Shown: positions 35,968-63,168 of the stretch, piece after piece
Layout: every line of letters begins with the position of its first letter
Position numbering within the stretch: the stretch's first letter is position 1
Origin: Salipaludibacillus sp. LMS25
Lineage (GTDB): Bacteria > Bacillota > Bacilli > Bacillales > Salisediminibacteriaceae
Assembly: GCF_024362805.1 (NCBI RefSeq)
Contig: NZ_CP093299.1
Location: 558,001 to 622,000 of the forward strand
Direction of reading: 5' to 3'
Length of the DNA stretch: 64,000 nt
Position numbers and translations under genes: made by a program
The notes under the pieces: model-generated
The model's input: only the letters and a program-made list of their open reading frames with translations
Databases searched by the model: none
Told to the model about the DNA's origin: nothing

Positions 35968-36117
35968 AAAGCTAAGCTTCAATCAGTGGGAATTTTCCTT
36001 CATCCCCCACTGATTGTTCGTTTAACTTATCGGACCTTTAGGGGCAGTTTATCCCCCACCTAAACTTTCTTAAGTTTTCAGGTGGGGGTTTTACTGCCCC
36101 TTAAGAGTGGGATAAAT
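35968..36117 (+). repeat. Family A intergenic repeat, copy A1
   Basis: AAAGCTAAGCTTCAATCAGT start, head hairpin with CCCACTGATTG. The second hairpin nests GGGGCAGT/ACTGCCCC outside CCCCCACCT/AGGTGGGGG. It ends AGAGTGGGATAAA. Confidence 0.93.
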
Positions 36118-36175
36118 GAAAACTGAAACTTAGCAAAGTAAAAGACCGGCTACCTATGAGGCGCCAGTCTTTAAT

Positions 36176-36333
36176 AAAGCTAAGCTTCAATCAGTGGGAG
36201 TTTTCCTTCATCCCCCACTGATTGTTCGTTTAACTTATGGGACCTTTAGGGGCAGTTTATCCCCCACCTAAACTTTTCGGCCTTCTTAAGTTTTGAGGTG
36301 GGAGTTTTACTGCCCCTTAAGAGTGGGATAAAT
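36176..36333 (+). repeat. Family A intergenic repeat, copy A2
   Basis: A second complete copy in the same orientation, 58 bp after A1. It ends six bases before the trxA stop codon. Confidence 0.93.
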
Positions 36334-36339
36334 GGTAAC

Positions 36340-36654
36340 TTAAAGGTGTTTATTTAGCGTATCAGCAAGTGCTTCTTTAGGCTGGAATCCAACCACTTGA
36401 TCAACCACTTCTCCGTCTTTAAATACGAGGAGTGTTGGAATACTCATCACACCAAATTTACTAGCTGTTTCTTGATTCTCATCCACATCAAGTTTCACAA
36501 TTTTCACTTTATCTCCCATGTCTCCGTCTAATTCTTCTAACACAGGCGCAATCATTTTACACGGGCCACACCATGGCGCCCAAAAATCAACAAGTACAAC
36601 ACCTTCACTTGTTTCATTAGAAAAGTTTGCGTCAGTCACATTTACAATTGCCAT
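36340..36654 (-). CDS. trxA: Thioredoxin
   Basis: 104 aa, classical thioredoxin: active site WCGPC (residues 28-32) and cis-proline loop MSIPTL. It reduces protein disulfides in the cytosol and supplies ribonucleotide reductase. The ATG follows GAGGAATG. It lies between etfA and uvrC as in B. subtilis. A family A repeat begins just past its stop. Confidence 0.97.
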
Positions 36655-36985
36655 TTGTCATTCCTCCTCATTAAATACACAACATCTATTCCACAAAGTA
36701 GTCTCACAAGGCATGATTACGCTTATTTCTTTTATTTAAAGAAACCCCTTAGCGAACCCCTTGTTAGGTTAACCAATCCTTGCTAACCATATCATAAAGG
36801 ATTTTATAGAATGACGCAAAAAGAATGCTTACTAAGCACATTTGTATGAAGCCTCAAAAGTGACCGGGAAAGCCATGACGACTTTTTTGCCTCTTTTTTG
36901 GGCAAATCTTTTGTGACCTTTTTGACTAATGTGTCTAACACGATGTAACTATTACAATAGGTTCCTTAAACACGTGTCTAAATAC
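36655..36985. other. Intergenic region upstream of trxA
   Basis: Must hold the trxA promoter. Contains T-rich stretches but no ORF, repeat copy or RNA element that I recognise. Confidence 0.45.
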
Positions 36986-37024
36986 ACAAGGCTTTAAGAA
37001 GTAGTACACTTCTTAAAGCCTTTA
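36986..37024 (-). terminator. Terminator after etfA
   Basis: AAGGCTTTAAGAAG pairs perfectly with CTTCTTAAAGCCTT across a 7-nt loop just past the etfA stop. The T tract is weak. Confidence 0.75.
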
Positions 37025-37032
37025 AAATAGGA

Positions 37033-38007
37033 TCATACGAGTATCTTTTTAAACTCAGCAGTCAGTTTAGGGACAACGTCAAATAAGTCACCTACAATAC
37101 CGTAATCAGCGATTTGAAAAATCTCAGCTTCAGGGTCTTTATTAATAGCCACTATTATTTTTGAATTAGACATACCAGCTACATGTTGAATGGCACCGCT
37201 TAAACCTACTGCAATATATAAATCAGGTGTGACAACTTTACCTGTTTGCCCGATTTGGAGAGCATAATCACAATACTCTGCATCACAAGCACCACGTGAT
37301 GCACCAACTGCTCCTCCCAACACTTCCGCTAATTCATCAAGTAGTTTAAAATTTTCTTTCGTCTTCATACCTCTTCCGCCAGATACAATGACAGAAGCTT
37401 CTGATAGGTCCACGCCTGACGATGTGTTTTTTACCACGTCTTTAATTAAAGTATGCAAGTCAGCGATTTCTACCTCAACTTTTTTAATTTCTCCAGTCCG
37501 CTCCGTGTTCGGCTCTAAAGCTGGAATATTATTAGGACGTATTGTAATAAATGTCAGTCCTTCTTTAACAATAACTTTCTCAAAGGCTTTACCGGAATAA
37601 ATAGGACGGGTAAATAAACACTCATCTCCTGTCCTCTCTATGTCTGTCACATCAGAAATGAGTCCTATTTTATGCCTGCTCGCTAGTTTCGGAGCCAAGT
37701 CTCTCCCGATAGATGTGTGTCCTAACACGATGGCACTAGGATTTTCTTTAGTTATAACGGCCATTAAAGCTTGGGCATATCCTTCAGGTGTATAGTGGGC
37801 TAATCGGTCATGCGTCACACTCACAATCCGATCTACTCCATAGTGATATAACCGATCTCCTTGATCCGTTTCCTCTTTACCAATCATGACACCGACAATC
37901 TCACTATCTTCTTCTATCCTCTTTGCAGCAGCTATAGCTTCAAACACAACTTGTCTGAAATCCCCATCTCGTTGTTCTCCGAATACTAACACTTTATTTG
38001 GCATCAA
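37033..38007 (-). CDS. etfA: Electron transfer flavoprotein alpha subunit
   Basis: 324 aa. With EtfB it carries electrons from acyl-CoA dehydrogenases to the respiratory chain. The FAD domain is clear: VSGGRGMKTKENF, GGAVGASRGACDA, QIGQTGKVVTPDLYIAVGLS and SGAIQHVAGM. It lies 157 bp downstream of etfB, more than the usual short gap. Confidence 0.95.
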   Translation of the reverse strand: MMPNKVLVFGEQRDGDFRQVVFEAIAAAKRIEEDSEIVGVMIGKEETDQGDRLYHYGVDRIVSVTHDRLAHYTPEGYAQALMAVITKENPSAIVLGHTSIGRDLAPKLASRHKIGLISDVTDIERTGDECLFTRPIYSGKAFEKVIVKEGLTFITIRPNNIPALEPNTERTGEIKKVEVEIADLHTLIKDVVKNTSSGVDLSEASVIVSGGRGMKTKENFKLLDELAEVLGGAVGASRGACDAEYCDYALQIGQTGKVVTPDLYIAVGLSGAIQHVAGMSNSKIIVAINKDPEAEIFQIADYGIVGDLFDVVPKLTAEFKKILV

Positions 38008-38164
38008 TCCATCTCCTCCTATGAAAAAATCACCCTGGCTAGACTTGTACGCTGGATTTACGAATCATAATGAGTCTAGACTGAGCTTCACCTACCTTCT
38101 TACCTAATTTAACTAGACGGTTGAAATATCTCTTCTTTCTTTATGACAATGCCGTTTAACACGA

Positions 38165-38935
38165 TTAAATCACTTTAGCTTCCGTTTTAAGTAAAGACAC
38201 TAATTCAGCAACTTGTTCATCGCTATCACCCTCAAGTTTTTTGCCAGCTTGCTTTTCCGGTGGCAAGTAACGATCCACTGTCACGGTTTTTCCTTCTACC
38301 TCTTCTTCCTCTAACTCAAGATCATCTAAATCCAATGTTTCTAATGGTTTTTTCTTCGCTTTCATAATACCTGGGAGTGAAGGGTACCTCGGTTCGTTTA
38401 ATCCTTGCTGAGCGGTGACTAATAAAGGCAATGTAACATCAAGGTACTCTTGGTCACCTTCAACATCCTTTTCAACCTGTGCCTTGGCGCCTTCAATTGT
38501 TAACTTAGTGACGGATGTGACATGGTTAATACCTAAATTTTCTGCTAATCGTGGCCCAACTTGGCCGGAGCCCCCGTCCACGGCAACGTTACCTCCGAGA
38601 ATAAGGTGTGGCTCTTGGTCTTTTAAATAAGCTGATAAAAGAATTTCTATGGAATAAGGATCACAATTTTCTACCTCTTCTTCTTCAATCAATACTGCCT
38701 TATCTGCGCCCATAGCAAGTGCTGTACGAAGCTGTTTCTCTGCTTCTTCATCACCTACTGTCACCACTGTGATCTCTCCTCCGTGTTCATCACGTTGCTG
38801 GATCGCCTCTTCAATAGCATATTCGTCATATGGATTGATAATAAATTCAGCCCCGTCTTCTATCACCTCACCGTTTTCAATAGTAATCTTTTCTTCTGTA
38901 TCAAATGTGCGTTTCATAATGACAAAAATGTTCAT
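38165..38935 (-). CDS. etfB: Electron transfer flavoprotein beta subunit
   Basis: 256 aa, AMP-binding partner of EtfA: MNIFVIMKRTFDTEEKI start, ALAMGADKAVLIEEE and the recognition segment GGNVAVDGGSGQVGPRLAE. It has the family signature region VTLPLLVTAQQGLNEPRYPS. In B. subtilis fadB lies between fadR and etfB, but here only a family A repeat and a hairpin lie there. A possible cre site is 42 bp upstream. Confidence 0.95.
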   Translation of the reverse strand: MNIFVIMKRTFDTEEKITIENGEVIEDGAEFIINPYDEYAIEEAIQQRDEHGGEITVVTVGDEEAEKQLRTALAMGADKAVLIEEEEVENCDPYSIEILLSAYLKDQEPHLILGGNVAVDGGSGQVGPRLAENLGINHVTSVTKLTIEGAKAQVEKDVEGDQEYLDVTLPLLVTAQQGLNEPRYPSLPGIMKAKKKPLETLDLDDLELEEEEVEGKTVTVDRYLPPEKQAGKKLEGDSDEQVAELVSLLKTEAKVI

Positions 38936-38976
38936 ACTATGACCTCCTTAAAAAATAGGGTGAACAAACTCAATTC

Positions 38977-38990
38977 ATAAAGCGTTTTCA
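38977..38990 (-). promoter_or_regulatory. Possible CcpA site (cre) upstream of etfB
   Basis: TGAAAACGCTTTAT on the minus strand fits the cre consensus except at the last two positions. Confidence 0.45.
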
Positions 38991-39004
38991 AAGTTGTTTA
39001 AATG

Positions 39005-39026
39005 AAAAGGAGATACCTCTCCTTTT
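39005..39026 (-). terminator. Hairpin between fadR and etfB
   Basis: AAAAGGAGA and TCTCCTTTT are perfect 9-bp arms with a 4-nt loop, T-rich on the 3' side. It suggests that etfBA are not read from the fadR transcript. Confidence 0.6.
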
Positions 39027-39136
39027 ATCACACCCGTTTTACAAGTGTGGCATGAATTGATCACTTATTTAAATCATGCGCCTGTTTAGTCCTGACGAGC
39101 TGGTGGGTGAGCATGATGAAAGCCATCCATTAGAAT

Positions 39137-39247
39137 AAAGCTAAGCTTCAATCAGTGGGAGTTTTCCTTTATCCCCCACCTAAACTTTTCGATCTTCTTA
39201 AGTTTTGATGTGGGGGTTTTACTGCCCCTTAAGAGTGGATTAAAATA
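39137..39247 (+). repeat. Family A intergenic repeat, internally deleted copy A3
   Basis: Begins AAAGCTAAGCTTCAATCAGT but jumps from TCATCCCCCAC-type sequence straight to CCACCTAAACTTTTCGATC. It lost the right arm of hairpin 1 and the left outer arm of hairpin 2. It ends ACTGCCCCTTAAGAGTGG. Confidence 0.88.
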
Positions 39248-39270
39248 TAAAGGCTTCCGATCTTTGTGGC

Positions 39271-39861
39271 CTAAGGATTTTCTGTAATGCCGTTCAACAG
39301 CATATGATGAATCGGTTCTGCAAGGGTAATAAGCTCATATTTACACTCTTTCATAATCCAATTCGTTACAACTTCATCCATTGCTCCGAATATTAACTGG
39401 CGAGTCAAACGTAAATCGAGATTTTTTCCAAATACGCCTTTTTCCATCCCCTCTTCAATGACAGAGTCAATCAGTGTCAAATACCCTTTTAACACTTCAT
39501 TCACTTTATAGCGAATGGCAATGTTAGACTGTCTTAACTCAAGTTGTGTAACTATAGCGAGATCATGATCCATCTCTAGCTGCATAAAATGCATCTCAAT
39601 TAAGATCAATAACTTCTTTTCAACAGACGTCTCCGTTCTCATTTTCTCCTTGATTCGATCAACGAAATGCCCCATTTTTTCTTCAAATAAAGAGATAAGA
39701 ATATCCTCTTTATTTTTAAAATACAGATAGATCGTGCCGTCTGCTACGCCTGCTTCTTTTGCTATTTTTGATACTTGTGATTGGTGGTAACCGTTTTTTG
39801 CAATCACTTTCACTGCAGCGTCGATTATTTGTTCATATTTTTGTCCACGTTTTTTTCCCAT
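39271..39861 (-). CDS. fadR: TetR-family fatty acid degradation repressor
   Basis: 196 aa with the TetR helix-turn-helix ISKIAKEAGVADGTIYLYFK (about residues 24-44) and an acyl-CoA-binding C-terminal half. B. subtilis FadR (YsiA) represses fatty-acid beta-oxidation genes and is released by long-chain acyl-CoA. A perfect operator lies 31 bp upstream of its start, indicating autoregulation. Neighbours are two lcfA genes and etfBA. Confidence 0.92.
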   Translation of the reverse strand: MGKKRGQKYEQIIDAAVKVIAKNGYHQSQVSKIAKEAGVADGTIYLYFKNKEDILISLFEEKMGHFVDRIKEKMRTETSVEKKLLILIEMHFMQLEMDHDLAIVTQLELRQSNIAIRYKVNEVLKGYLTLIDSVIEEGMEKGVFGKNLDLRLTRQLIFGAMDEVVTNWIMKECKYELITLAEPIHHMLLNGITENP

Positions 39862-39891
39862 CTTATCACGTCCTCATTTACTGTAACAAAA

Positions 39892-39909
39892 TGAATGATT
39901 GTTCATTCA
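39892..39909. promoter_or_regulatory. FadR operator upstream of fadR
   Basis: TGAATGATTGTTCATTCA is an 18-bp palindromic FadR box. A second copy of this motif precedes ysmA at 21059. Confidence 0.88.
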
Positions 39910-39969
39910 TAAACTATTCTAGATGATTTATTACGACCTGTCAATCAGCTTTTCTGTTTTATTTCATAG

Positions 39970-40029
39970 AATGATCCTTCAACAGTGGCAGTTTTCGTTC
40001 TTTTCCTACTGATTGGTTATCTGTGATAA
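39970..40029 (+). repeat. Family B intergenic repeat, deleted copy B5
   Basis: Head hairpin (CAGTGGCAGTTTTCG ... CCTACTGATTGG) joined directly to the 3' terminus TTATCTGTGATAA. The whole second hairpin is lost. Confidence 0.8.
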
Positions 40030-40235
40030 AAGAAGACGAACCTCCCATTCCGTAAAGGAGTTAGCACCCTACCAATTATAAGTATCTGCTACTCTCTTTC
40101 ATGTTAGTCTTAAATGGCGCAAGAATCAACTCTCTTTTGCAACGATGGCATTTTGTTACTTAAAGGACAATAGTAATTATAGCTTCCACAAGAAGATAAC
40201 TAAAAAAGCGTCAGACAGGTTTATAGACTCGTACA

Positions 40236-40389
40236 TAAAGCTAAGCTTCAATCAGTAGGCATTTTCGTTCTTTTCCCACTGATTGAAGAGCGAGTGAATC
40301 AGGACATGAGTGTCTGTTATCTCGCCCCTAAATAGAGTTATCTCTCCTCTCTATTTTCAGAGGGTTTTTCGGACGATTATCTGTGATAA
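40236..40389 (+). repeat. Hybrid repeat: family A start, family B body (B4)
   Basis: Starts TAAAGCTAAGCTTCAATCAG like family A, then continues as a complete family B element to TCTGTGATAA. It shows that the two families share an exchangeable head. Confidence 0.88.
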
Positions 40390-40431
40390 AGAAAGGAGAA
40401 CTTGACATCACTCATCAAGTCCTCACGCTCA

Positions 40432-42129
40432 TTAACTCGTTTGTTCCTCTTGCCGCTCTTTTTCCTCTTCCATTAAAGCTCGTCGTAATATTTTTCCTAC
40501 TAATGTTTTTGGCAAATCATCACGAAATTCTACTAACCTAGGCACTTTGTACGTCGCAAGGTGTTTCTTACAAAATGCGATTAATTCATGCTCTGTTAAA
40601 TCTTCACCTTCTTTTTTTACAATGAACACTTTGACTGTTTCTCCACGATAAGGGTCAGGAACGCCTAAAGCAACGGCTTCTTGAATAGCAGGATGTTCGT
40701 AAAGGACTTCTTCTATTTCTCGTGGGTATATGTTAAACCCTCCCGCTATAATCATATCTTTTTTCCGATCGACAATATAAAAGAAGCCTTCTTCGTCCAT
40801 ATACCCCATATCCCCAGTAAGGAGCCAGTCGTTTTGAAAAGCCGCTTCCGTTTCCTCTGGACGGTTCCAATAGCCTTTCATCACTTGTGGTCCGCGAATG
40901 ACGAGCTCACCTACTTCTCCAGGTGGAGCTATTTCACTCGTTTCTGAAAATATGACTGCTACATCCGTATCCGGCCATGGAAGACCAATACTTCCAGGTG
41001 GCCGTTTCTCCCACAAAAGGTTAAAATGGGTCACTGGAGACGCCTCTGTAAGTCCGAATCCTTCTGATAGAGTCCCACCAATTAGCTGTTCAAATTGGTG
41101 TTGAACATCTAACGGTAACGGTGCTGAGCCACTTGTACATACTTTAACGGATGATAAATGATACCTTTTAACATCTGGATGATGGATCAAACCGATATAC
41201 ATTGTCGGGGCTCCAGGGAAAATCGTGACTTTTTGTGATTGGATCGCTTGCAACGTTTGTGTCGCATCAAATTTCGGAAGAATAACCATCTTTGCCCGTG
41301 CCATCACCGAATAGTTCATACCCACTGTCATACCATAGACGTGGAAAAAAGGAAGGGCACAGAGAACAACCTCATTGCGATGATCAAGTTTATACATCCA
41401 TTTAATACATTGCGTCGTATTGGCAACGAGATTATAATGTGTCAGCATCACACCTTTTGCCACACCTGTCGTCCCACCTGTGTATTGTAAAAGGGCTAAA
41501 TCGTCTTTTGGCTCAATATTAACTGAAATCAAGTTGTTAGTTGCTTTTTTCAACAGGCTTTTAAATGAATGAGTATAGGCGTTGTAAGCGATGTTTGGCT
41601 TACGTTTAGCCACCTTCATTCTTTTAAAAGGGTATAGCATGTTTTTAGGAAAAGGTAAATAATCATTCATTTTTGTGACAATAATGTGCTCAATAGCTGT
41701 AAACGGCTTTACATTTATGACGCGCTCATAGACAAGATCAAGACAAACAATCACTTTAGCACCCGAATCACTAAGTTGATGTTCTAGTTCCCGTTCAACA
41801 TATACTGGATTTGTTTGTACAACGACCCCACCAGCTAGTAATGTCCCATAATAACTAATAACTGACTGCGGTGTATTAGCAAGCATTATCGCCACTCGAT
41901 CACCTTTGGTAACACCAAATGAATGTAAGACATTGGCAAATCTAAGGGCAGCGTCATACACCTGTTTAAAGGTCATTTCTTTCCCCATAAAATGAAGTAA
42001 TGTTTTATTCGGCTCCTCCTCTGCCCCTTCTTTTAAATAATCTTGAAGCGGCTTTTCATCGTAATGAATATGTTTCGGAATAACATTCGGATACTGAGCT
42101 AACCACGGTTTCTCGCTAACAGTTCCCAT
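40432..42129 (-). CDS. lcfA: Long-chain fatty acid-CoA ligase, second copy
   Basis: 565 aa from MGTVSEKPWLAQYPNVIPKH at 42129, behind AGGAGG; ten extra residues from 42159 are rejected. It activates fatty acids to acyl-CoA via an acyl-adenylate. AMP-binding motifs: LQYTGGTTGVAKGVMLTHYN, GFGLTEASP, TGDMGYMDEEGFFYIVDRKK and the C-terminal Lys in KTLVGKILRR. It is a clear paralogue of the gene 84 bp upstream. In B. subtilis a single lcfA precedes fadR. Confidence 0.93.
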   Translation of the reverse strand: MGTVSEKPWLAQYPNVIPKHIHYDEKPLQDYLKEGAEEEPNKTLLHFMGKEMTFKQVYDAALRFANVLHSFGVTKGDRVAIMLANTPQSVISYYGTLLAGGVVVQTNPVYVERELEHQLSDSGAKVIVCLDLVYERVINVKPFTAIEHIIVTKMNDYLPFPKNMLYPFKRMKVAKRKPNIAYNAYTHSFKSLLKKATNNLISVNIEPKDDLALLQYTGGTTGVAKGVMLTHYNLVANTTQCIKWMYKLDHRNEVVLCALPFFHVYGMTVGMNYSVMARAKMVILPKFDATQTLQAIQSQKVTIFPGAPTMYIGLIHHPDVKRYHLSSVKVCTSGSAPLPLDVQHQFEQLIGGTLSEGFGLTEASPVTHFNLLWEKRPPGSIGLPWPDTDVAVIFSETSEIAPPGEVGELVIRGPQVMKGYWNRPEETEAAFQNDWLLTGDMGYMDEEGFFYIVDRKKDMIIAGGFNIYPREIEEVLYEHPAIQEAVALGVPDPYRGETVKVFIVKKEGEDLTEHELIAFCKKHLATYKVPRLVEFRDDLPKTLVGKILRRALMEEEKERQEEQTS

Positions 42130-42212
42130 TTGAAACCTCCTACATAACCCCTTTTTCAAATGGAGACATGCCTTCTCTCGTCAGAAGACTCTTACTCTAC
42201 CTCTAACAATCG

Positions 42213-43910
42213 CTAGTTAGAGAGGTTTTCAGCTTTCTTTTTTTCCTCTTCTACAAGGACACGACGCAATATTTTCCCGACCATTGTTTTCGGCAGTTCT
42301 TCTCGAAATTCGTAGTATTGAGGAACTTTATAAGAAGCTAAATGCTGTCTAGTAAAGTGATTAAGCTCCTCTTCTGTTACTTCCCTGCCTTCCTTTGTTA
42401 CAACAAATGCTTTTACCGTCTCCCCACGGTAAGGATCAGGGATACCTATTGCACAAACTTCTTGTATACTGTCATGCTCATAAAGAACTTCTTCGATTTC
42501 ACGTGGATAAATGTTAAAACCACCTGCAATGATGAGGTCTTTTTTGCGATCCACGATATAGAAAAAGCCCTCCTCATCCATATAGCCCATGTCTCCAGTT
42601 AAAAACCACTCTCCACGAAATACGGCTTGCGTCTCTTCTGGACGCTTCCAATAACCTTTCATAACCTGAGGCCCCTTAATGATAATCTCTCCAACTTCCT
42701 TCGGTTTGGCTACTTCCCCTGTTTCTGCAGATAGCACTGCCACATCTGTATCCGGCCATGGCAATCCGATAGACCCCTGCTTTCGTTCCCCCCAAAGCAA
42801 GTTAGACACAGCACACGGCGATGTTTCCGTTAACCCATAACCTTCCACCAACCGGCCGTTTGTCACTTCTTCAAACCTCGTCTGCACTTCTAACGGTAAC
42901 GGCGCTGAGCCACTTATACAGGCTTTAATTGAAGACAGGTTGAATGTTTTAATATTAGGATGATTTAACAGCCCAATATACATCGTTGGGGCACCAGGAT
43001 AGAGGGTCACCTTGTGCTTTTCAATCGCTTTTAAAATCCCCTTAGCATCAAATTTTGGAATGATGATCATTTTAAAAGCCATTCTAATACTTAAATTCAT
43101 GACAGTTGTCATGCCATACACATGGAAAAAAGGTAAAGCTGCAAGAACGACTTCTTCCCCGGGAACTAATTTATACATCCACTCTTCACATTGCTGAGTG
43201 TTCACGGTCAAGTTGTAATGTGTAAGCATAACCCCTTTCGCAGGCCCTGTGGTCCCCCCAGTGTATTGTAAGAGAGCTAAGTCCTCCATAGGGTCAATAT
43301 CAAGAGGGATTTCCCGTGTATTACCTCGTTTTAGTAAATCAGTAAATGAATGTAGGTGGTTGTTATACACAATATCCACTTTTAGTCCTGTTTTTCTTTT
43401 TTGCATAAAAGGGTAAATTAAATTTTTTGGAAAAGGGAGGAAATCTTTTAGTGATGTAACAATAACATGTTGCAAATTTGTTTTTTCTTGGACTTTGGCG
43501 ATACGAGGATATACAAGATCGAGACAGATTATTACTTTTGCCCCTGCATCATTCATCTGATGTTCAATCTCTCGTTCGACATACAACGGATTCGTTTCTA
43601 CGACAATAGCTCCTGCCAACAATACCCCATAGTATGAAATCACTGCCTGTGGGCTGTTCGCTAACATAATAGCGACGCGATCTCCTTGTCTCACCCCGAG
43701 TGATCTTAATTGATTAGCTAGTTTTAATGCATCGTCATACACTTCTTTGTACGTCATCTCTTTACCCATAAAATGCAAAGCAGCCTTATCAGGAAAGTTC
43801 TCCGCAGCCCGTTTTAAATAGCTTTGTAATGTGCTTACTTCATAATTTATGGACGGGGGAATGTTTCCCAGATAATGTGCCAACCACGGCTTTTCAATTA
43901 CTGTTTCCAT
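42213..43910 (-). CDS. lcfA: Long-chain fatty acid-CoA ligase, first copy
   Basis: 565 aa, full length, with motifs LQYTGGTTGPAKGVMLTHYN, GYGLTETSP and TGDMGYMDEEGFFYIVDRKK, and the catalytic Lys in KTMVGKILRR. It and its paralogue make acyl-CoA for beta-oxidation, whose products inactivate FadR. A good cre site lies about 136 bp upstream, fitting CcpA control of this operon in B. subtilis. No FadR box was found in its own upstream region. Confidence 0.94.
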   Translation of the reverse strand: METVIEKPWLAHYLGNIPPSINYEVSTLQSYLKRAAENFPDKAALHFMGKEMTYKEVYDDALKLANQLRSLGVRQGDRVAIMLANSPQAVISYYGVLLAGAIVVETNPLYVEREIEHQMNDAGAKVIICLDLVYPRIAKVQEKTNLQHVIVTSLKDFLPFPKNLIYPFMQKRKTGLKVDIVYNNHLHSFTDLLKRGNTREIPLDIDPMEDLALLQYTGGTTGPAKGVMLTHYNLTVNTQQCEEWMYKLVPGEEVVLAALPFFHVYGMTTVMNLSIRMAFKMIIIPKFDAKGILKAIEKHKVTLYPGAPTMYIGLLNHPNIKTFNLSSIKACISGSAPLPLEVQTRFEEVTNGRLVEGYGLTETSPCAVSNLLWGERKQGSIGLPWPDTDVAVLSAETGEVAKPKEVGEIIIKGPQVMKGYWKRPEETQAVFRGEWFLTGDMGYMDEEGFFYIVDRKKDLIIAGGFNIYPREIEEVLYEHDSIQEVCAIGIPDPYRGETVKAFVVTKEGREVTEEELNHFTRQHLASYKVPQYYEFREELPKTMVGKILRRVLVEEEKKKAENLSN

Positions 43911-44691: not shown

Positions 44692-44697
44692 CTGTTC

Positions 44698-51635: not shown

Positions 51636-51680
51636 GAACGACACTTCAGTGGGCGTTTTACGAACGATTATCTGTGATAA
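51636..51680 (+). repeat. Family B remnant B6
   Basis: CTTCAGTGGGCGTTTTACGA joined to ACGATTATCTGTGATAA. Only the head start and 3' terminus survive, just downstream of rnhC. Confidence 0.65.
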
Positions 51681-51788: not shown

Positions 51789-51799
51789 TTAATCCACAA

Positions 51800-55286: not shown

Positions 55287-55465
55287 CCCTTTTCCTCCTT
55301 ATGTTTTTAAATGAACTGCTTTTGTCACATCACCAATCATCGAGATGTTATCTCCAGATGTCAGTCAGTGAGTGACTTTAAACGTGAACAGTGTGAACCC
55401 ATTTAGCTCTTGCTTTACAGTTTGCATCATGTCGGGTTGCAGAGCGCCAGTTATTTTGAAGACAC

Positions 55466-55735: not shown

Positions 55736-55854
55736 AGATATATCTGTGACTATTATATAAGGTTTTAACAGGGAACGCAAATAGTCTTTAAAAAGGTAAA
55801 ACCATACTAAAAACGATTTTTCATAACATTATCGACCTATCATTTGCCACAATA

Positions 55855-55873
55855 TAAAGCTAAGCTTCAATCA
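55855..55873 (+). repeat. Family A head stub at the end of ysgA
   Basis: TAAAGCTAAGCTTCAATCA is the first 19 bp of a family A repeat; the rest is absent. The ysgA stop codon lies inside it. Confidence 0.7.
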
Positions 55874-56622
55874 CCTCTCAGGTGATACAGCAAGATACCA
55901 GTAGCAATTGCAACATTTAAAGACTCTGCTTCTCCAAAAATCGGGATGTATAAATTTTGATTTGTTCTTTCAAGTAGTTTCTTGTTGACACCGCTACCTT
56001 CATTCCCTACAATAAGCGCAAAGTTCTCTTGCGGAGCAATCGCCGAGTACGTGCTCCCTTGCAAACTCGTACCAAAAACAGGTATATCATTATCTTGACA
56101 TATGTCAATCGCTTCTTCGAGATCCATTTTTTGTACAACTAAATGGAATAATGAGCCTTGTGTTGAACGAATAACTTTCCCATTATAAGGGTCGGCTGTG
56201 CCATGTCCAAGAACGATGCCTGATATGCCCGCAGCATCAGCAGTACGAATCATCGCTCCTAAATTCCCTGGATCTTGGACAGCATCCACAAATAAATATT
56301 TCCCTTCCTCTAGCAAAAGATTTTCATTGCTTGGCTGTTGACAAACCGCTGCAAACCCTTGAGGTGTTTCTGTTTCAGAGATTTCTCTCATGACTCTTTC
56401 TGTCACAGTGAGCGTGGGTAATTCTTTCACATTCCACTGGACAGGCACGTGTTTGTGTTCTTCTATAATTAAATGTTCTATGACCAAATCAGATTTTAAG
56501 GCTTCCTCAATGAGATGGATACCCTCAATGATAAAAAGACCTGTATTATCACGTTCTTTTTTTGTGTGAAGTTTTTTCCATGATTTTATTTTTGGATTTT
56601 GCACAGATTCAATGATTTCCAT
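55867..56622 (-). CDS. ysgA: TrmH/SpoU family RNA methyltransferase YsgA
   Basis: 251 aa: N-terminal substrate-binding domain, then the SPOUT knot. SAM-binding motifs are VDAVQDPGNLGAMIRTADAA, ALIVGNEGSGVNKKLLER and the IPIFGEAESLNVAIATGILL knot. Likely a ribose 2'-O-methyltransferase of rRNA or tRNA; the target is not known from sequence. Its TGA stop is contributed by the family A head stub. Confidence 0.92.
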   Translation of the reverse strand: MEIIESVQNPKIKSWKKLHTKKERDNTGLFIIEGIHLIEEALKSDLVIEHLIIEEHKHVPVQWNVKELPTLTVTERVMREISETETPQGFAAVCQQPSNENLLLEEGKYLFVDAVQDPGNLGAMIRTADAAGISGIVLGHGTADPYNGKVIRSTQGSLFHLVVQKMDLEEAIDICQDNDIPVFGTSLQGSTYSAIAPQENFALIVGNEGSGVNKKLLERTNQNLYIPIFGEAESLNVAIATGILLYHLRGD

Positions 56623-56667
56623 AAGTTACCCCTTTCTATATATGCCCTTCTCCATTATCAACGCATA

Positions 56668-56822
56668 AAGCTAAGCTTCAATCAGTGGGAGTTTTCCTTC
56701 ATCCCCCACTGATTGTTCGTTTAACTTATCGGACCTTTAGGGGCAGTTTATCCCCCACCTAAACTTTTCGATCTTCTTAAATTTTGAGGTGGGGGTTTAC
56801 TGCCCCTTAAGAGTGGGATAAA
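56668..56822 (+). repeat. Family A intergenic repeat, copy A4
   Basis: Complete copy with both hairpins, in the divergent region between ysgA and sspI. It is over 90% identical to A1 and A2 by eye. Confidence 0.93.
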
Positions 56823-57034
56823 CATATGATAATGGCTCATTATATAAGGCTACAAACATTCCATCTAAAACGGGTTTACACACATAGCTCGTTTTTAGAT
56901 GATACTCATCTAAGCAACCGATCAGATATTCTTAAGTTACATATTGTTCAAAGGTTCCAACCATACTATAACAGAATTAACAAAACAAAACGATTCAATT
57001 CCTAAATAGAAACTAAATGGGAAGGAGGGTCATT

Positions 57035-57253
57035 ATGGTCAATTTTAATCTACGCGGTGCTATTTTACAAAATGTATCAGGTAGCAGCCAAGAGGACGTG
57101 GAGGCTACAATCGTTGAAGCGATCCAAAGTGGTGAAGAAAAAATGCTGCCAGGCTTAGGTGTTCTTATGGAGATATTCTGGCAATCCGCTAGTGATGAAG
57201 AGAAGAACTCTTTGACAGATCGTATTGCTTCAGGCTTAAAACAAGACTTATAA
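57035..57253 (+). CDS. sspI: Small acid-soluble spore protein SspI
   Basis: 72 aa from ATG 57035 after AAGGAGGG. Sequence MVNFNLRGAILQNVSGSSQE and the segment SGEEKMLPGLGVLMEIFWQS define the SspI family of minor spore-core proteins made late in the forespore. The length agrees with B. subtilis SspI. The TAA stop is the first three bases of repeat A5. It is on the opposite strand to ysgA, as in B. subtilis. Confidence 0.93.
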   Translation: MVNFNLRGAILQNVSGSSQEDVEATIVEAIQSGEEKMLPGLGVLMEIFWQSASDEEKNSLTDRIASGLKQDL

Positions 57254-57408
57254 AGCTAAGCTTCAATCAGTGGGAGTTTTCCTTCATGCCCCACTGATGG
57301 TTCGTTTAACTTATGGGACCTTTAGGGGCAGTTTATCCCCCACCTAAACTTTTCGACTTTCTTAAGTTTGAGGTGAGGGTTTTACTGCCCCTTAAGAGTG
57401 GGATAAAT
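57251..57408 (+). repeat. Family A intergenic repeat, copy A5
   Basis: Complete copy beginning with the sspI stop codon (TAAAGCTAAGCTTC). It ends GAGTGGGATAAA and runs straight into family B copy B7. Confidence 0.92.
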
Positions 57409-57533
57409 CGCCCCTTTAATTAGTGGGTATTTTCGTTCATCTCCCACTGATTGCTAGTTATCTCCCGCCTATATAGATTTATCTTCCTCTCTATATTTAA
57501 GGCGGGAGTTTTTCGGACGGTTATCTGTGATAA
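57409..57533 (+). repeat. Family B intergenic repeat, copy B7
   Basis: Follows A5 without a gap. Its second hairpin has a perfect CTCCCGCCT/AGGCGGGAG stem, the best preserved of the B copies. It ends TCTGTGATAA. Confidence 0.9.
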
Positions 57534-57573
57534 AGGTTTAAAGCTTAATTATTAATTAAGCTTTAGACCTTTT
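57532..57573. terminator. Long AT-rich hairpin downstream of sspI
   Basis: AAAGGTTTAAAGCTTAATT pairs with its near-complement (one mismatch) 3 nt later. It may end the sspI or the yitT-like transcript. Confidence 0.55.
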
Positions 57574-57685
57574 AAGCACGTAGATATGAATTAACTATCA
57601 TTATAGGGAATGATACTGTAGTGATCCTCCAGTCTTGGAAAGTGGTGGATGAGTGTCAAAAATATCATTTGTAAAATGGGAAGAT

Positions 57686-58504
57686 TTAATCCCGTCTAAA
57701 ATTCCCCATGACCTCCATGCTTTCACTCACACTTACAAATGCCTGTGGATCTATCTCTTTCAAAATGGGCCTGATGATCGCCAACTCATAACGGGTAATG
57801 ACTGTATACAACACTTTCTTATCTTCACCTGAATAGGCTCCTCTCCCATCAATCACCGTTATTCCTCTAACAAGATTAGCTAGGAGCTCTTTCTTCAATT
57901 CGTCCCCTTTACTCGTCACGACCATTAAGCTAAGCTTCACATGACGAGTATGAACACGATCAATTACGATGCCAGTGATGTAGATTGACAGCATCGTGTA
58001 TAAAGCTAAATCCCACGCAAAGAAAAAAGCAGAAATAAACACAACAACACTGTTAAGTGCAAAAATTAAGCCTCCTAAAGGCACATCCCACCTTTTTATT
58101 AATACAAGACTGACAATATCGAATCCTCCTGTGGAACTATAAAAACGGATAATAACACCAATTGCAGCCCCGGCAATGACCCCGCCAAAGACCGACGATA
58201 ATAACGCATCCTCCGTCACTTGAATAATCGGGATATATAGCATCGAAATCGAAATGATGAGAACGGAAAAAATACTATTCCCTATAAATTCTCTTCCTAA
58301 CTTCATCCAACCCAAGACGAAGATCGGCGCATTGAGTAGAACGATCCAATACCCTGTATTCACAGGTGTCATAAGACCAAAAACCATTGCAAGACCTGTT
58401 ACGCCACCTGTTAATACTTCATGTGGTAGTAAAAATAAGTTAAATGCAACGCCAATAACAATTGACGCAATAAAAATGACAAGTAGGCGAATTCCCCGTT
58501 GCAT
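57686..58504 (-). CDS. YitT family membrane protein (DUF161 plus DUF2179)
   Basis: 272 aa: five or six membrane helices (family segments NLFLLPHEVLTGGVTGLAMV and SSTGGFDIVSLVLIKRWDVP) and a C-terminal cytosolic DUF2179 domain (ITVIDGRGAYSGEDKKVLYT). Function in the family is not settled. Several paralogues are usual in Bacillus, so no specific symbol is given. It is flanked by repeats on one side and ysdC on the other. Confidence 0.88.
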   Translation of the reverse strand: MQRGIRLLVIFIASIVIGVAFNLFLLPHEVLTGGVTGLAMVFGLMTPVNTGYWIVLLNAPIFVLGWMKLGREFIGNSIFSVLIISISMLYIPIIQVTEDALLSSVFGGVIAGAAIGVIIRFYSSTGGFDIVSLVLIKRWDVPLGGLIFALNSVVVFISAFFFAWDLALYTMLSIYITGIVIDRVHTRHVKLSLMVVTSKGDELKKELLANLVRGITVIDGRGAYSGEDKKVLYTVITRYELAIIRPILKEIDPQAFVSVSESMEVMGNFRRD

Positions 58505-58657
58505 GACATCACTCCATATTCCTTAAATTACTTTTGGAATTATACTGATTCATACCACCCCTCGTCAATAGTTACACGTCTTTTTTATTATTAAAGAAGT
58601 TTTTTTCTATGTTACCTTCCTCTCTATCATAATTGTCATTCACTAAACCATTATTAC

Positions 58658-58691
58658 AAAAAGCAAAAAACCGACTGCAATTTGCAGTCGG
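58658..58691 (-). terminator. Terminator of ysdC
   Basis: CCGACTGCAA/TTGCAGTCGG 10-bp stem with 1-nt loop; TTTTTTGCTTTTTG follows on the minus strand. Confidence 0.93.
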
Positions 58692-58701
58692 CAATCATTT
58701 T

Positions 58702-59781
58702 TTAATCAAACGTAATGGCATCAACCGTTTTTCTATCTAATTTCTTAATGACTTCCACAATGAGCTTAACAGCATTTTCGAAATCATCACGATGTAAAAT
58801 AGCCGCATGAGTATGAATATAACGGGTCGCAATTGTAATAGATAAAGCTGGTACTCCGTTTGCAGTCAAATGAATCGAACCAGAATCTGTACCACCTGCT
58901 GGGACAGCGTCAAACTGATAAGGGATATTCTTCTCATCAGCTGTATCAGTCACAAAATCACGCAAGCCCGTATGAGCCACCATGGAGGCATCATACATTA
59001 CAATTTGTGGACCTTCGCCCATCTTAGCTAAGGCATCCTTCTCGGTTACACCTGGTGTGTCTCCTGCAATACCTACATCAACTGCAAATCCAATATCAGG
59101 TTGTATATGGTAAGCAGACGTTTTTGCTCCTCTTAAACCTACTTCCTCTTGTACGGTCCCCACACCATAGACTGTATTCGGGTGTTCTGTTTCACTAAGG
59201 TGCCGAAGCACTTCAATGGCAATGGCGCAACCAATACGATTATCCCACGCTTTTGCCATTAGCATTTTTTCATTCTTCATAATAGTAAAATCACATACCG
59301 GTACGACCGTGTCTCCAGGCCGAACTCCAAAGCTTTTTGCTTCGTCTTTACTTGTGGCACCGATATCGATAAACATCTCTTTTTTGTCCATAGACTTCTT
59401 ACGTACTTCAGGCGATAAAATATGTGGAGGCTTGGAACCGATCACCCCAGGAATATTGCCACTCTTTGTCATAACTGTCACACGCTGTGCCAGCATGACT
59501 TGCTCCCACCATCCGCCGAGACATTGAAATTTTAGAAAGCCTTTATCATCTATATGCGTGATCATAAACCCTACTTCATCTAAGTGCCCAGCTACCATAA
59601 TTTTAGGTCCGTCTTCTACTGAACCTGTTTTTTTGGCAATAAGACTACCAAGATGATCCGTCTCAACTGAATCTGCATAAGAAGATATGTACTTTTTCAT
59701 CACGTCTCGTGGTTCACGTTCATTTCCTGGTGTTCCATTTGCATCTGTTAAATCTTTTAGCATTACAAGCATATCATCCAC
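58702..59781 (-). CDS. ysdC: M42 family aminopeptidase/endoglucanase-like YsdC
   Basis: 359 aa from a GTG nine bases after GGAGG. Metal and catalytic residues appear in order: [30 protein letters not shown] (catalytic Glu and ligand), [11 protein letters not shown] and the late HTHAA. Members are dodecameric cobalt- or zinc-dependent aminopeptidases, sometimes annotated as cellulase M. It lies between the dUTPase and the YitT-like gene. Confidence 0.92.
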
Positions 59782-59873
59782 TTAGCTACGCCTCCTATGT
59801 TTTACAATGTTTGATTTATTATATCGAGTTTCACCTGATTTCATTATTTTATGCAAAAGTGGCACAATAGGCA

Positions 59874-60374
59874 TTAGTACCCTTGATCTTGCCTCTGCTT
59901 ATTCACATCGTTTTTTTTCATATAAGCTTGTTCCACATCCTCACCTGAAAAGCCTAGATGTGCACCTATCGTTAAGTAGCTCGTAAATAATGCTTCAAAC
60001 GCATTTTTTGAGCCTTCTTTTCTCAAGTTAAGAAGTTTGTCTGTCACGTTAAAAAAGTCTGTTACCAAAACCTCTTTAGACACACTCACACTTTCTGGAT
60101 ATTGGCAATGACACGTTTTATCGTACCCGTATTCAAGGCCAATAGATAAAATAAAATGAATGCCGTCTACGTACTCTTCTAATATGACATCTCGTTCTGA
60201 GGGCCCTTTTGTGCTCCAAAATTTAAAACAGCGCGTTTCATTTGCTAGTTCAGCAAGCTCTACTTGCAATGCAAGCAATTTACGTTCTAGTAACGCCTCA
60301 TCATGTAACCCTTGTTTCGTTTCTATGTATGTGTCTAACGTTTTTTGCATCTCAAACAGCTTAGAAAAATTCAT
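59874..60374 (-). CDS. Dimeric all-alpha dUTP diphosphatase
   Basis: 166 aa of the all-alpha NTP pyrophosphatase superfamily. The metal-binding helices ALQVELAELANETR and EEYVDGIHFILSIGLE give the ExxE...ExxD pattern of dimeric dUTPases. It lowers dUTP, keeping uracil out of DNA, and yields dUMP for thymidylate. Unrelated in fold to trimeric dUTPases. Confidence 0.88.
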   Translation of the reverse strand: MNFSKLFEMQKTLDTYIETKQGLHDEALLERKLLALQVELAELANETRCFKFWSTKGPSERDVILEEYVDGIHFILSIGLEYGYDKTCHCQYPESVSVSKEVLVTDFFNVTDKLLNLRKEGSKNAFEALFTSYLTIGAHLGFSGEDVEQAYMKKNDVNKQRQDQGY

Positions 60375-60530
60375 CTGGCACTCCTTATCCTTGATTTACG
60401 CTTGATTAAAATTTTATACTTTAATTACACGAATCAATTTCATTATACAAACGATACCTGTTAAAAACGACTCATCCATTGACCTTCACAGACGCTTTCC
60501 CAAGGGCTCGTCATCAGTTAAATGATGCGA

Positions 60531-60684
60531 TAAAACAACTCTTCACAGTGGGAGTTCACGTTATTATCCCACTAATTGGTTGGTGAGTGAATCAGGACTT
60601 TAGCGTTCCTTATCTCCCACCTATATAGTTTTCTCTTGCTCTCTATTTTCAAGCCGGAGTTTTACAGAAGGTTCTCTGTGATAC
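60531..60684 (+). repeat. Family B intergenic repeat, copy B8
   Basis: Starts TAAAACAACTCTTCACAGTG and ends CTCTGTGATA. Both hairpins are recognisable but eroded. It lies in the divergent region dUTPase/ysdB. Confidence 0.85.
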
Positions 60685-60766
60685 AATAGTTTACATTGTT
60701 TGCTTATTCATGTTGAAAATTCAATTGTGACATTCAGCCATACCTTAAATAACTACTTAATTATTT

Positions 60767-60792
60767 TGAAACCTTGTTTCTTTTCAATCGTA
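60767..60792 (+). promoter_or_regulatory. SigW-type ECF promoter of ysdB
   Basis: TGAAAC (60767-60772) and CGTA (60789-60792) are separated by exactly 16 bp, the B. subtilis SigW consensus. It lies 176 bp before the ysdB start. ysdB is a SigW regulon member in B. subtilis. Confidence 0.85.
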
Positions 60793-60967
60793 GCACATAT
60801 AAGAATGATTCACATCTTTTCATTACTCAAAATATAAAACGATTTTAATACCATAAAGGTCATTTAAAAGTATAACAAAAGGAAAGTCATTCGTTAATAT
60901 ATTAACAGGCTATTTTCATCGTTTGGCGTTTATCATTTACTTACGTGTAGTAGGAAGGAGAGATATC

Positions 60968-61372
60968 ATGTTAACTGTCATCCTGTTCCGAATATTCCTC
61001 CTGTTAGCCGTTGGAATTATTATTTTTAGCTTGATTAAATATACACTGGACCCTCGACGCAAATTAGAAAAAGCTTATCGCGATGGGCATTTTTATTTAC
61101 TTGATGATCCAGATAATGTAAGAAAAAATGTGTTATTTACGTTTCGCAACGCTTTATTCGAAGGAGAGAAATTCCTCGGTACGACTGAGGATTCTTTTGA
61201 AGTGACATCCATTATTATTAACTCTGAAGATATCGACCATTTGCATGGGTTGAGCCGACGGGATTTTCATTTTATTGAGAAAGAATTGATGCTTCGCTAT
61301 CCGAAAGCTGATATTGAATGGCGATCGCCTATAAGCCACTTAATAAAACGCCTTGAAAAACAAAGAAAGTAA
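60968..61372 (+). CDS. ysdB: SigW-regulated protein YsdB
   Basis: 134 aa from ATG 60968 after GGAAGGAG; the longer frame from 60923 is rejected. One N-terminal membrane helix, then the cytosolic segment YTLDPRRKLEKAYRDGHFYL. The family is found in Bacillus next to ysdA and its function is unknown. The promoter suggests a role in cell-envelope stress. Confidence 0.88.
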   Translation: MLTVILFRIFLLLAVGIIIFSLIKYTLDPRRKLEKAYRDGHFYLLDDPDNVRKNVLFTFRNALFEGEKFLGTTEDSFEVTSIIINSEDIDHLHGLSRRDFHFIEKELMLRYPKADIEWRSPISHLIKRLEKQRK

Positions 61373-61545
61373 TAGTTTCTTGCTAACACCCTTTCTAGCC
61401 AACAACACTAAAAAAGTGATGTCAGCAAAAAACAGAAACACTCCGTTTAAAGACTCCTTCTGTTTAAGCTGATGAACTTCTAAAAAAGATTGTTGATGGT
61501 CGCTGGACGTGCGAGAGCGCTCTCATCTCCTTGAGGTTGTTTTGA

Positions 61546-61698
61546 TAAAACACTCCTTCATCAAATCAGTGGGCGTTTTCGTTCTTCTCCCACTGATTGG
61601 TAGGTGAGTGAATTAGGACATTAGCCTCCGTTACCTTGCGCCTATATAGAGTTATCTCTTTTTCAGGCCGGAGTTTTTTGAACCGTTATCTGTGATTA
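61546..61698 (+). repeat. Family B intergenic repeat, copy B9
   Basis: TAAAACACTCCTTCATCAAA start, both hairpins, and the 3' end TTATCTGTGAT. It lies in the convergent gap between ysdB and the VTT-domain gene. Confidence 0.87.
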
Positions 61699-61843
61699 CG
61701 TTCTCGTTACGGGCTTAACCTTCTGTTAACGTTCCCTTCCAAGAAGACCCCTATTAAAAAGTGGCTAGTTTTGGTTATAGCACTGACGTAAACTTCCTCT
61801 TTGAACTATGCTCATCCTTTCATTCCAAAACCCGAAGGCATTT

Positions 61844-62425
61844 TCAACGTTCATACACTTTACTCGGAAAGAATCTCTCCCATTTATAGACTGCTGTTCC
61901 CCTCTTACCTAAATAAGAGAAAATCATTGCAAGAAGGCCGAAAAAAATAAGTGATAAATACCACGGAAGTTCTGTGATGCCCTGACCAAATGCTGTGTAA
62001 AGCATCGAAGGAAAAATGACACCACCAATAGAATATATCATATACTCACGATAAGTTTTTGTCATATCAATTAAATATAAAGAGAGTAAATGAAAATGGA
62101 CGAAAGGCATCATCCTAAGAATCATCACTTGCCCTATTGTAAGTAACCGATCTTTAAAAACTTTCTGTTTTAGCTTAATAATACGTTTGTGGAAAAATGG
62201 AAATAAATTTATGAGTTTATAAAATCCAAGACTCATGAGCGATAAGCCTATTATAGAATACAATGTCCCATAAAAAAAACCAAATAAATAGCCACCTATA
62301 ATACATACTACAATAACCGGGATAAATAATAATGGTCTTATTAAATGAAGAATAATAAAGAGGGCAGGCCCCAGCCATCCAGCTTCATCTATTAGTTGAG
62401 GAATTGCTTCGTTGAATGCCTCCAT
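61844..62425 (-). CDS. VTT/DedA-type (TVP38/TMEM64) membrane protein
   Basis: 193 aa with five or six hydrophobic segments. The VTT core is seen in CIIGGYLFGFFYGTLYSIIG and in MMPFVHFHLLSLYLID. The superfamily includes lipid scramblases and flippases; the exact role of this member is not known. It lies between ysdB and ysdA, where B. subtilis has no such gene as far as I recall. Confidence 0.82.
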   Translation of the reverse strand: MEAFNEAIPQLIDEAGWLGPALFIILHLIRPLLFIPVIVVCIIGGYLFGFFYGTLYSIIGLSLMSLGFYKLINLFPFFHKRIIKLKQKVFKDRLLTIGQVMILRMMPFVHFHLLSLYLIDMTKTYREYMIYSIGGVIFPSMLYTAFGQGITELPWYLSLIFFGLLAMIFSYLGKRGTAVYKWERFFPSKVYER

Positions 62426-62499
62426 GATGGTCTCTCCCCTTTCAATCTAGTCTATGACAAATAACAATGTACATGCTATTAAATGACCAAATTCTATTC

Positions 62500-62772
62500 T
62501 CACATAGAAAAATAAACAAGTAAAGCTACTTGGATAACGGCAATCAATGGAAAACCAATATAAAAACGGCTTTTTTTTGTTTTATGTCTAATAACTTGCG
62601 ATGCCCCCCACATACCTACAGCTCCTCCAAGTACAGCTATAAAGAAAAGCGTGCCTTCCGATATGCGCCACTCTCTTCTCTGAGCCCGCCGTTTATCTAC
62701 ATTCATTAAGATTATTCCTATTAAATTGATGACTAATAGCCACCCTAATACACTTAATTCAAGTATTTGCAT
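62500..62772 (-). CDS. ysdA: DUF1294 membrane protein YsdA
   Basis: 90 aa with three membrane helices. Family hallmarks are DKRRAQRREWRISEGTLFF and GGAVGMWGASQVIRHKTKKS. The function is unknown. It follows rplT, as in B. subtilis. Confidence 0.9.
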   Translation of the reverse strand: MQILELSVLGWLLVINLIGIILMNVDKRRAQRREWRISEGTLFFIAVLGGAVGMWGASQVIRHKTKKSRFYIGFPLIAVIQVALLVYFSM

Positions 62773-62903
62773 TCATTTTTCCTTTCTTACTCCCATGCTC
62801 ACTTTATGTCATTTTTGATTTATCCTCTTGGGCCACCTGCTTCATTGTCATTATAAAATGTGAAAACGACTCGGTGGTTATTAAGTCAACCAATTGCATC
62901 ATA

Positions 62904-63049
62904 TAAAGCTAAGCTTCAATCAGTGGGAGTTTTCCTGCATCCCCCACTGATTGTTCGTTTAACTTATCGGACCTTTAAGGGCAGTTTAACTTTTCGACCT
63001 TCTTAAGTTTTGAGGTGGGGGTTTTACTGCCCCTGAAGAGTGGGATAAA
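62904..63049 (+). repeat. Family A intergenic repeat, copy A6
   Basis: Lacks the segment TATCCCCCACCTAAAC but keeps the outer GGGCAGT/ACTGCCC arms. It ends GAGTGGGATAAA, shared with the start of B10. Confidence 0.9.
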
Positions 63050-63168
63050 ACGCCTCTTCAATCAGTGGGAGTTGAGTGAATAAGGACATTAGCCTCCGTT
63101 ATCTCCCCCCTATATGTCTCTTCACTCTTGTTTCAGGCTGGAGGTTTTCGGACGGTATCTATGATAAA
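63046..63168 (+). repeat. Family B intergenic repeat, copy B10
   Basis: TAAAACGCCTCTTCAATCAG, directly after A6. The right arm of the head hairpin is deleted. It ends TCTATGATAA. Confidence 0.85.

Follow-up and report, generated by a model that had tools for sequence, protein, structure and literature searches.

Double-hairpin repeats A and B of Salipaludibacillus sp. LMS25 are probably gene-less mobile elements that work like IS200/IS605 transposon ends

What are the double-hairpin repeats that recur between the genes of Salipaludibacillus sp. LMS25, and do they act as DNA or as RNA? The stretch analysed here (the window, 64,000 nucleotides, G000:C1:558001-622000 in the single contig of 4,525,667 bases that makes up this genome, G000) had been given a preliminary description from its letters alone, in which two repeat families, A and B, were put forward as mobile hairpins, RNA regulatory domains or terminator/attenuator cassettes. 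Profiles built from seed copies were searched across the window and across sampled stretches of G000 (31 stretches, 664 kb, 144 copies). In the window they located six A and ten B copies, 16 in all (Table 1), in agreement with the numbers first given once stubs are counted; 13/16 lie inside 35966-63168 and three B copies lie outside that interval. We consider it likely that A and B belong, as two subfamilies, to a superfamily of mobile elements that spans the order Bacillales, carries no genes and works in the manner of IS200/IS605 transposon ends. The direct support comes from the anatomy of the elements, their fixed ends, their intergenic and mostly species-specific sites, their polarity relative to replication, and covariation between lineages combined with decay within the genome.

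The unit is about 159 bp long. Each end carries ATAAA, which is TTTAT on the opposite strand; close to one end (the head) lies a short hairpin, and close to the other (the tail) a long nested one. In the orientation of the preliminary description (the described strand) the A consensus reads ATAAA-GCTAAGCTT-[CAATCAGTGGG..CCCACTGATTG]-linker-[GGGGCAGT..CCCCCACCT..AGGTGGGGG..ACTGCCCC]-TTAAGAGTGGG-ATAAA, and that of B has the same head hairpin followed by a tail of CGTCCGT/CTCCCGCCT..AGGCGGGAG/ACGGACG ending GTG-ATAAA. The nested stems of A are as originally described, the tail hairpin of A copy 2 having GGGGCAGT/ACTGCCCC as its outer and CCCCCACCT/AGGTGGGAG as its inner arms. The statement that no duplication is evident has to be qualified, as ATAAA stands exactly at both ends in 74/143 sampled G000 copies whose ends were checked; the other 69/143 lack it at one or both ends and are decayed or cut there. 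Bases beyond ATAAA are not conserved among the 74 copies with both ends exact. In 12 aligned sequences TTTATC is invariant or at least 90% conserved, which gives a fixed short target 5′ of the left end, TAA lies 5′ of the left hairpin in 9/12 and CTAA 5′ of the right hairpin in 7/12, where an IS200/IS605 element would have guide bases that match its cleavage site; the A-type right end is CGAA. No terminal inverted repeat was found (compared by eye, the opening 12 bases of the A consensus and its closing 12 in reverse complement agree at 5/12 positions) and a subterminal imperfect hairpin is present at each end. Many copies are internally deleted, including forms of 52-55 bp seemingly joined at a GTGGGAGTTTT repeat, and some copies combine the head of A with the tail of B. 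These hybrids, together with optional middle cassettes, bear out the word ‘modular’; A and B are better seen as two subfamilies of a wider family than as two families.

The head motif CTTCAATCAGTGGGAG (up to two mismatches) has 697 matches in G000 (347 forward, 350 reverse) and its reversed control a single one (1 and 0), which excludes chance. An end motif, ATAAA-N6-CTTCAATCAGTGGG (up to two mismatches), is found in 132/397 genomes of the order and 71/135 genera, the reversed motif giving at most one match per strand in any genome; single matches include chance ones, several of the 30 loci read being without an element, and 47/397 genomes, G000 included, have five or more (hand count). Among the matches listed in an exact-match scan the genera include at least Niallia, Lysinibacillus, Sporosarcina, Oceanobacillus, Gracilibacillus, Peribacillus and others. 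The A/B family is much wider than the view from a single window shows, and its distribution across the order is patchy; within the genus of the window the head motif is present in G000 and in two other genomes, G001 and G005, and absent from five other species. Phages gave no element match; of four exact matches in viral contigs, three lie in near-identical stretches that contain no element, and the fourth is a 55-bp form. A search of PLSDB (72,556 records) with the family consensus gave four plasmid records, two of them covering less than half of the query, and no Bacillus cereus plasmid. One match is remote from the usual hosts: on a plasmid registered under Klebsiella grimontii (CP079755.1 221561-221623), 43% of the family consensus is covered at an identity of 77.9%. 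The word ‘undescribed’ stands in so far as none of 4227 Rfam families matches A or B in the window (the search returned only two tRNAs, a T-box and a group II intron piece) and a literature search for the literal motif strings gave no relevant match, and is qualified by the bcr1-bcr3 repeats, the closest described kind, which were compared by description only.

The orientation of the copies follows replication. In G000 the described strand is the C-rich, lagging strand in 124/144 copies (p 1.6e-19); in those copies the opposite strand, which is proposed below to transpose, is the G-rich strand, i.e. the lagging-strand template. This polarity is not a by-product of gene direction, because the same sense prevails by 50 to 7 (50/57) in gaps between convergent or divergent genes, where transcription favours neither direction, and by 9 to 3 (9/12) between lagging-strand genes. 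Seven other genomes have 201/263 copies in the same sense among those listed in spans of clear GC skew (G001 25/33, G271 38/44, G112 48/64, G019 25/42, G026 29/40, G331 16/19, G005 20/21), and six of the seven reach p<0.01. For these counts GC skew was sampled by 10-kb stretches and 81/344 listed copies were dropped as lying in spans of unlike or near-zero skew; the copies among the matches listed were 45/108 in G001, 90/118 in G112, 60/60 in G271, 51/51 in G019, 21/198 in G005 (including four copies of one tandem array), 46/47 in G026 (palindrome partner left out) and 31/37 in G331 (six on other contigs left out), and the 48/64 of G112 takes in ten more listed copies than an earlier 40/54. 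The spans of sampled skew replaced two-arc fits of orientation made without skew, of which that for G271 gave 53/60, the best of 1000 shuffles reaching 49.

Two alternatives bear on this polarity. The copies could be conventional miniature inverted-repeat transposable elements (MITEs), with terminal inverted repeats and a 5-bp duplication of ATAAA, which a DDE transposase moves in double-stranded form; they are short, intergenic and non-coding, and ATAAA at both ends resembles a duplication, but we regard this as improbable since the terminal inverted repeat is missing (the 5/12 agreement above) and a double-strand mechanism predicts no replication polarity of the kind seen in 124/144 and 201/263 copies. 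They could also be polar chromosome-architecture signals selected for their orientation, such as gyrase-binding repetitive extragenic palindromic sequences (REPs) and FtsK-orienting sites. Orientation that tracks replication and not transcription fits such signals; the idea is nevertheless very improbable, given that the copies decay neutrally, that the head motif is absent from 5/7 other genomes of the genus, and that the three stretches nearest the replication origin (G000 1.81, 1.92 and 2.03 Mb; L050, L117, L051) hold 0, 1 and 0 copies per 20 kb. Five copies lie in the stretch that follows, at 2.15 Mb. A secondary architectural role might still apply to some copies.

Comparison of insertion sites points to movement. 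G001 and G005 are syntenic with the window, and for window copies with anchors the matching gap has no element in 14/15 cases in G005 and in 9/16 in G001. The empty site in G005 for A 36174-36332 is near-exact, the flanks meeting with only small differences. Elsewhere in G000, at 4060 of L043 (G000:C1:226001-246000), a B copy is cleanly split at ATAAA by an A copy; once one ATAAA is taken out, the joined flanks give a 75.5-bit match to the B profile that spans the junction. Full-length A copies (45/59 A copies) have a mean identity of 96.3% to their consensus and full-length B copies (33/85 B copies) one of 88.7%; by this measure the full-length A copies are young and the full-length B copies older. 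‘Mobile hairpins’, among the first suggestions, is the one that finds support, since positions mostly differ between close species, an A element is nested in a B element at ATAAA, orientation is linked to replication and distribution is patchy. Neighbouring pairs with a common ATAAA number ten in the sample, two of them being the two sides of the nested case in L043. The eight non-nested pairs (window 57250-57534 and 62903-63168; L042, L043, L046, L053, L055, L125) comprise seven with A before B and one with B before A (L055) in the described orientation, and at about 304450 to 305230 of G005:C1 (L390, L402) five B elements lie head-to-tail with a period of about 155 bp and ATAAA in common.

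The preliminary description had suggested a test of covariation, and covariation between genera was found, in the tail helices. The set consisted of 12 sequences from 12 genomes and 7 genera, picked from the loci read for having both ends, with the structure taken from the same alignment. Of 36 pairs, 17 have two-sided changes, all of them in the tail helices and none in the head hairpin, where 6/10 pairs are invariant; 92.0% of cells are paired, against 80.7% in shuffles (0/500 shuffles reach 92.0%) and 28.7-45.6% in slid controls. Within G000, substitutions per site in stems and loops are 0.035 and 0.037 for A and 0.125 and 0.103 for B, with 1 compensatory cell in A and 4 in B, and a strand test of G-T against A-C mismatches does not discriminate (9 vs 35 for A, 56 vs 57 for B). 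Folded as DNA, A copy 2 is stable (z -6.6) and the B copy tested is weaker (z -2.9). Because structure covaries between genera and stems decay like loops within G000, structure appears to be selected in source elements and not in resident copies, which speaks against a local RNA role and is as expected from a mobile element.

In the 664 kb sample, where 75% is coding by a crude open reading frame call, 142/144 copies are intergenic; the remark that none lies inside a complete gene thus nearly holds, failing for 2/144. Density per kb of native gap is 1.28 in convergent, 1.02 in divergent and 1.24 in tandem gaps, with no clear preference across these gap types of the sort that enrichment at gene 3′ ends, a feature of intrinsic terminators, would give. 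The idea that the repeats are functional RNA elements (terminators, attenuators or mRNA-stability hairpins) retained for their influence on adjacent genes can draw on the stable folding, the strong covariation between genera, the intergenic location and, according to PMC3446304, on about half of bcr copies being transcribed in B. cereus. We nevertheless judge it quite improbable, as density is similar in all gap types, stems decay like loops with few compensatory cells, and matching gaps are without an element for most window copies in G005 and many in G001; the suggestions of RNA regulatory domains and terminator/attenuator cassettes are not borne out for the first two of these reasons.

We return to single-strand movement like that of IS200/IS605 transposon ends. 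According to PMC6006769, IS200/IS605 transposases insert into the lagging-strand template, and the element strand that has TTTAT on its 5′ side lies there as well. The transposing strand would be the reverse complement of the described strand, running TTTAT, 9-11 nt usually ending TAA, the long left-end hairpin, a linker often ending CTAA, the short right-end hairpin, 9 nt and TTTAT. Single-stranded on the lagging-strand template, it would fold both hairpins; a single-strand transposase supplied in trans would cut after each TTTAT, and the excised piece would join 3′ of a TTTAT in another lagging-strand template. Selection for movement would keep the structure of active sources, and inserted copies would then decay neutrally.

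The moving enzyme was sought through its Pfam domains. PF01797 (Y1) was searched in G000, in 17 relatives and then in 40 genomes; PF01385 has no match in G000, and PF07282 in seven relatives gave seven matches in three of them. In G000 the matches are four IS200 genes, identical to one another, and two remnants (L009-L014), and at 4/6 of these Y1 loci element copies lie within the 3 kb locus as separate elements, not as ends around the gene. The degraded copy L013 sits between two A elements. A total of 107 Y1 or TnpB loci of relatives was examined (100 of the 218 Y1 matches listed and 7/7 TnpB; 67 checked by end pattern, 40 carrier Y1 loci added, the family profile also used). By pattern none of the 67 has element ends; four of the 107 hold an element, namely a decayed full copy (L200), a shortened one (L474), a short form (L480) and one running away from the gene and off the locus (L460). 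Among 80 named loci 11 head-tail pairs were found, with gaps of 58-209 nt, too short for a gene. A RAYT-like transposase, which the preliminary description had proposed to look for, was likewise not found in G000 (IS200-type matches only) or in G001 and G005 (no Y1 match); RAYT-length Y1 genes are present in G019 and G026. The remark that no transposase is linked agrees with these searches as far as they went. Because none of the 107 loci lies inside an element and some carriers gave no Y1 match, we describe the elements as working like an IS200/IS605 end pair and do not file them as members.

Several observations weigh against the reading that we favour. Not one of the 107 Y1 or TnpB loci lies inside an element, the ends of the G000 IS200 genes are unlike those of A or B (by eye), and no Y1_Tnp match was found in 5/26 other carriers (G001, G005, G331, G350, G088), compared with 3/31 non-carriers in the same searches; in a further carrier, G055, the match is a weak fragment only. 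Since the best copy pairs among the few aligned are 93.5% identical in G350 and 92.3% in G331, the enzyme could have been lost from such carriers after amplification. Seven of the 16 window copies, in four gaps, lie where G001 has an element too, of the other type in two gaps (A vs B at 35966/36174, B vs A at 40235) and B in both in two (57403, 60530). The gap at 40235 is occupied in G005 as well and its right flank is identical in all three genomes, for which reasons this insertion may be old and shared, as may some others. Precise empty-site evidence amounts to the one nested case and the one near-exact site, and a true 5-bp duplication would look the same as a TTTAT fixed at either end. Polarity is not significant in G019 (p=0.28), and the two-arc fits without skew for G026, G019 and G112 fall within the shuffle range. 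Finally, the 52-55 bp forms, which lack hairpins and which we take to be dead deletion products between GTGGGAGTTTT repeats, recur in several genomes.

The carriers without a Y1 match are also what favours site-specific recombination at TTTAT by a recombinase, as proposed for the B. cereus bcr repeats. We think this unlikely, the polarity and the paired hairpins being expected of single-strand transposition and not of double-strand recombination; by analogy with integrons, a recombinase acting on folded single strands might be involved. Tentatively, and with a good deal of doubt, single-strand movement can be stated more specifically: the superfamily would have a large nested hairpin at one end, would reach several hundred copies in one genome, would take up other structured repeats such as Bacillaceae-1 as cassettes, and would be moved by something other than a Pfam Y1 enzyme, perhaps a HUH enzyme that has escaped recognition or a recombinase acting on folded single strands. 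If elements of the favoured kind are at work, the intergenic hairpins of the order can be read as traces of DNA movement that is strand-specific and coupled to replication, hundreds of them in a single genome, and provide concrete ends, a target and a strand for tracing the enzyme. They would also be an example of covarying, RNA-like structure selected as DNA, and a caution that structured-RNA screens in the order can catch pieces of mobile repeats.

Table 1. Copies of repeats A and B in the window, parts of A copy 2, and internal cassettes in relatives
Feature	Position	Strand	Basis
A copy 1, full length	35966..36116	+	profile search
A copy 2, full length; G005 has a near-exact empty site	36174..36332	+	profile search
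A copy 2, head-end ATAAA (TTTAT at 3′ end of proposed transposing strand)	36174..36178	+	
A copy 2, head hairpin (right-end hairpin of proposed transposing strand)	36188..36224	+	helix 5 of covariation test
A copy 2, long nested tail hairpin (left-end hairpin of proposed transposing strand)	36249..36316	+	helices 2-4 of covariation test
A copy 2, tail-end ATAAA (TTTAT target, other strand)	36328..36332	+	
A copy 3, internally deleted	39135..39244	+	profile search
A copy 4, full length	56665..56822	+	profile search
A copy 5, head-to-tail with B copy, ATAAA in common	57250..57407	+	profile search
A copy 6, head-to-tail with B copy, ATAAA in common	62903..63049	+	profile search
B copy, outside 35966-63168	17995..18147	+	profile search
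B copy, outside 35966-63168; sole window copy in opposite orientation	21172..21330	-	profile search
B copy, shortened, outside 35966-63168	29299..29392	+	profile search
B fragment	39967..40018	+	profile search
B copy, hybrid head (first dozen bases A-type); elements in same gap of G001 and G005	40235..40390	+	
B stub	51645..51680	+	profile search
B copy, tandem with A copy 5	57403..57534	+	profile search
B copy; same gap has B copy in G001, none in G005	60530..60683	+	
B copy	61545..61696	+	profile search
B copy, tandem with A copy 6	63045..63168	+	profile search
RF01690 cassette	L138:1541-1607		
RF01690 cassette	L138:1729-1795		
RF01690 cassette	L153:1546-1612		
RF01690 cassette	L174		

Several relatives carry a match to RF01690 (Bacillaceae-1) as a module between the two hairpins, with three matches at 77-80 bits in L138 and L153, and what reads as its reverse complement occupies the same place in L269, L262, L337 and L396 (by eye). 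When 12 loci were compared with Rfam at E<=5, only RF01690, as this internal cassette, exceeded its gathering score. It is found in 78/150 genomes, many with at least 31 matches, and G000 has 9. RF01690 was also considered as parent of A and B and rejected, since among the places listed it mostly lies outside an element of the A/B family. The entry is marked as certainly an RNA in PMC2864571; we infer that it is also a mobile repeat, and it may be one of the pieces that RNA screens have caught. A second type of cassette, starting at about CCCGTTCTAGTGTCGC, in which part of the linker and end of the same element recurs inverted, was seen in L297, L329 and L320, and another repeat, with TATAAAAGG-type arms, in G367 (L246, L248, L244). 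A de novo search for bcr1 in two genomes found other repeats and did not identify bcr1. In the window, 44419-44584 matches the group II intron family D1D4-3 (RF02001) at 37 bits, the cut-off being 32.

How do A and B compare with known systems? Non-autonomous IS200/IS605 elements (palindrome-associated transposable elements and MITEs) share with them the absence of genes and of a terminal inverted repeat, a hairpin close to either end, a target that is short, fixed and confined to one strand, and orientation on the lagging-strand template. They differ in that no autonomous partner was found for the A/B family and in that its left hairpin is nested and long, measuring 68 nt in A copy 2, whereas PMC6006769 gives 20-25 nt. 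REP and REPIN sequences moved by RAYT (TnpAREP) are likewise high-copy extragenic palindromes thought to be moved in trans by Y1 enzymes, as outlined in PMC8266576. The A/B unit, by contrast, is about 159 bp with fixed ends, no RAYT match was found in G000, G001 or G005, and the GTAG that PMC8266576 gives as a feature is not present 5′ of the head hairpin on either strand of the A and B consensus; in B a GTAG lies 3′ of the head hairpin on the described strand, which is CTAC 5′ of the hairpin on the proposed transposing (top) strand. Bacillaceae-1 RNA (RF01690) is a high-copy structured repeat of the same order and a cassette inside some A/B-family elements; A and B differ from it in sequence and structure, and it lies mostly outside them among the places listed. 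Closest among described kinds are the bcr1-bcr3 repeats of B. cereus, which come from the same broad bacterial group, overlap in size (bcr 100-400 bp), and are MITE-like, intergenic and associated with TTTAT according to PMC6542083 and PMC3446304; it is by description, and not by sequence, that A and B are likened to them.

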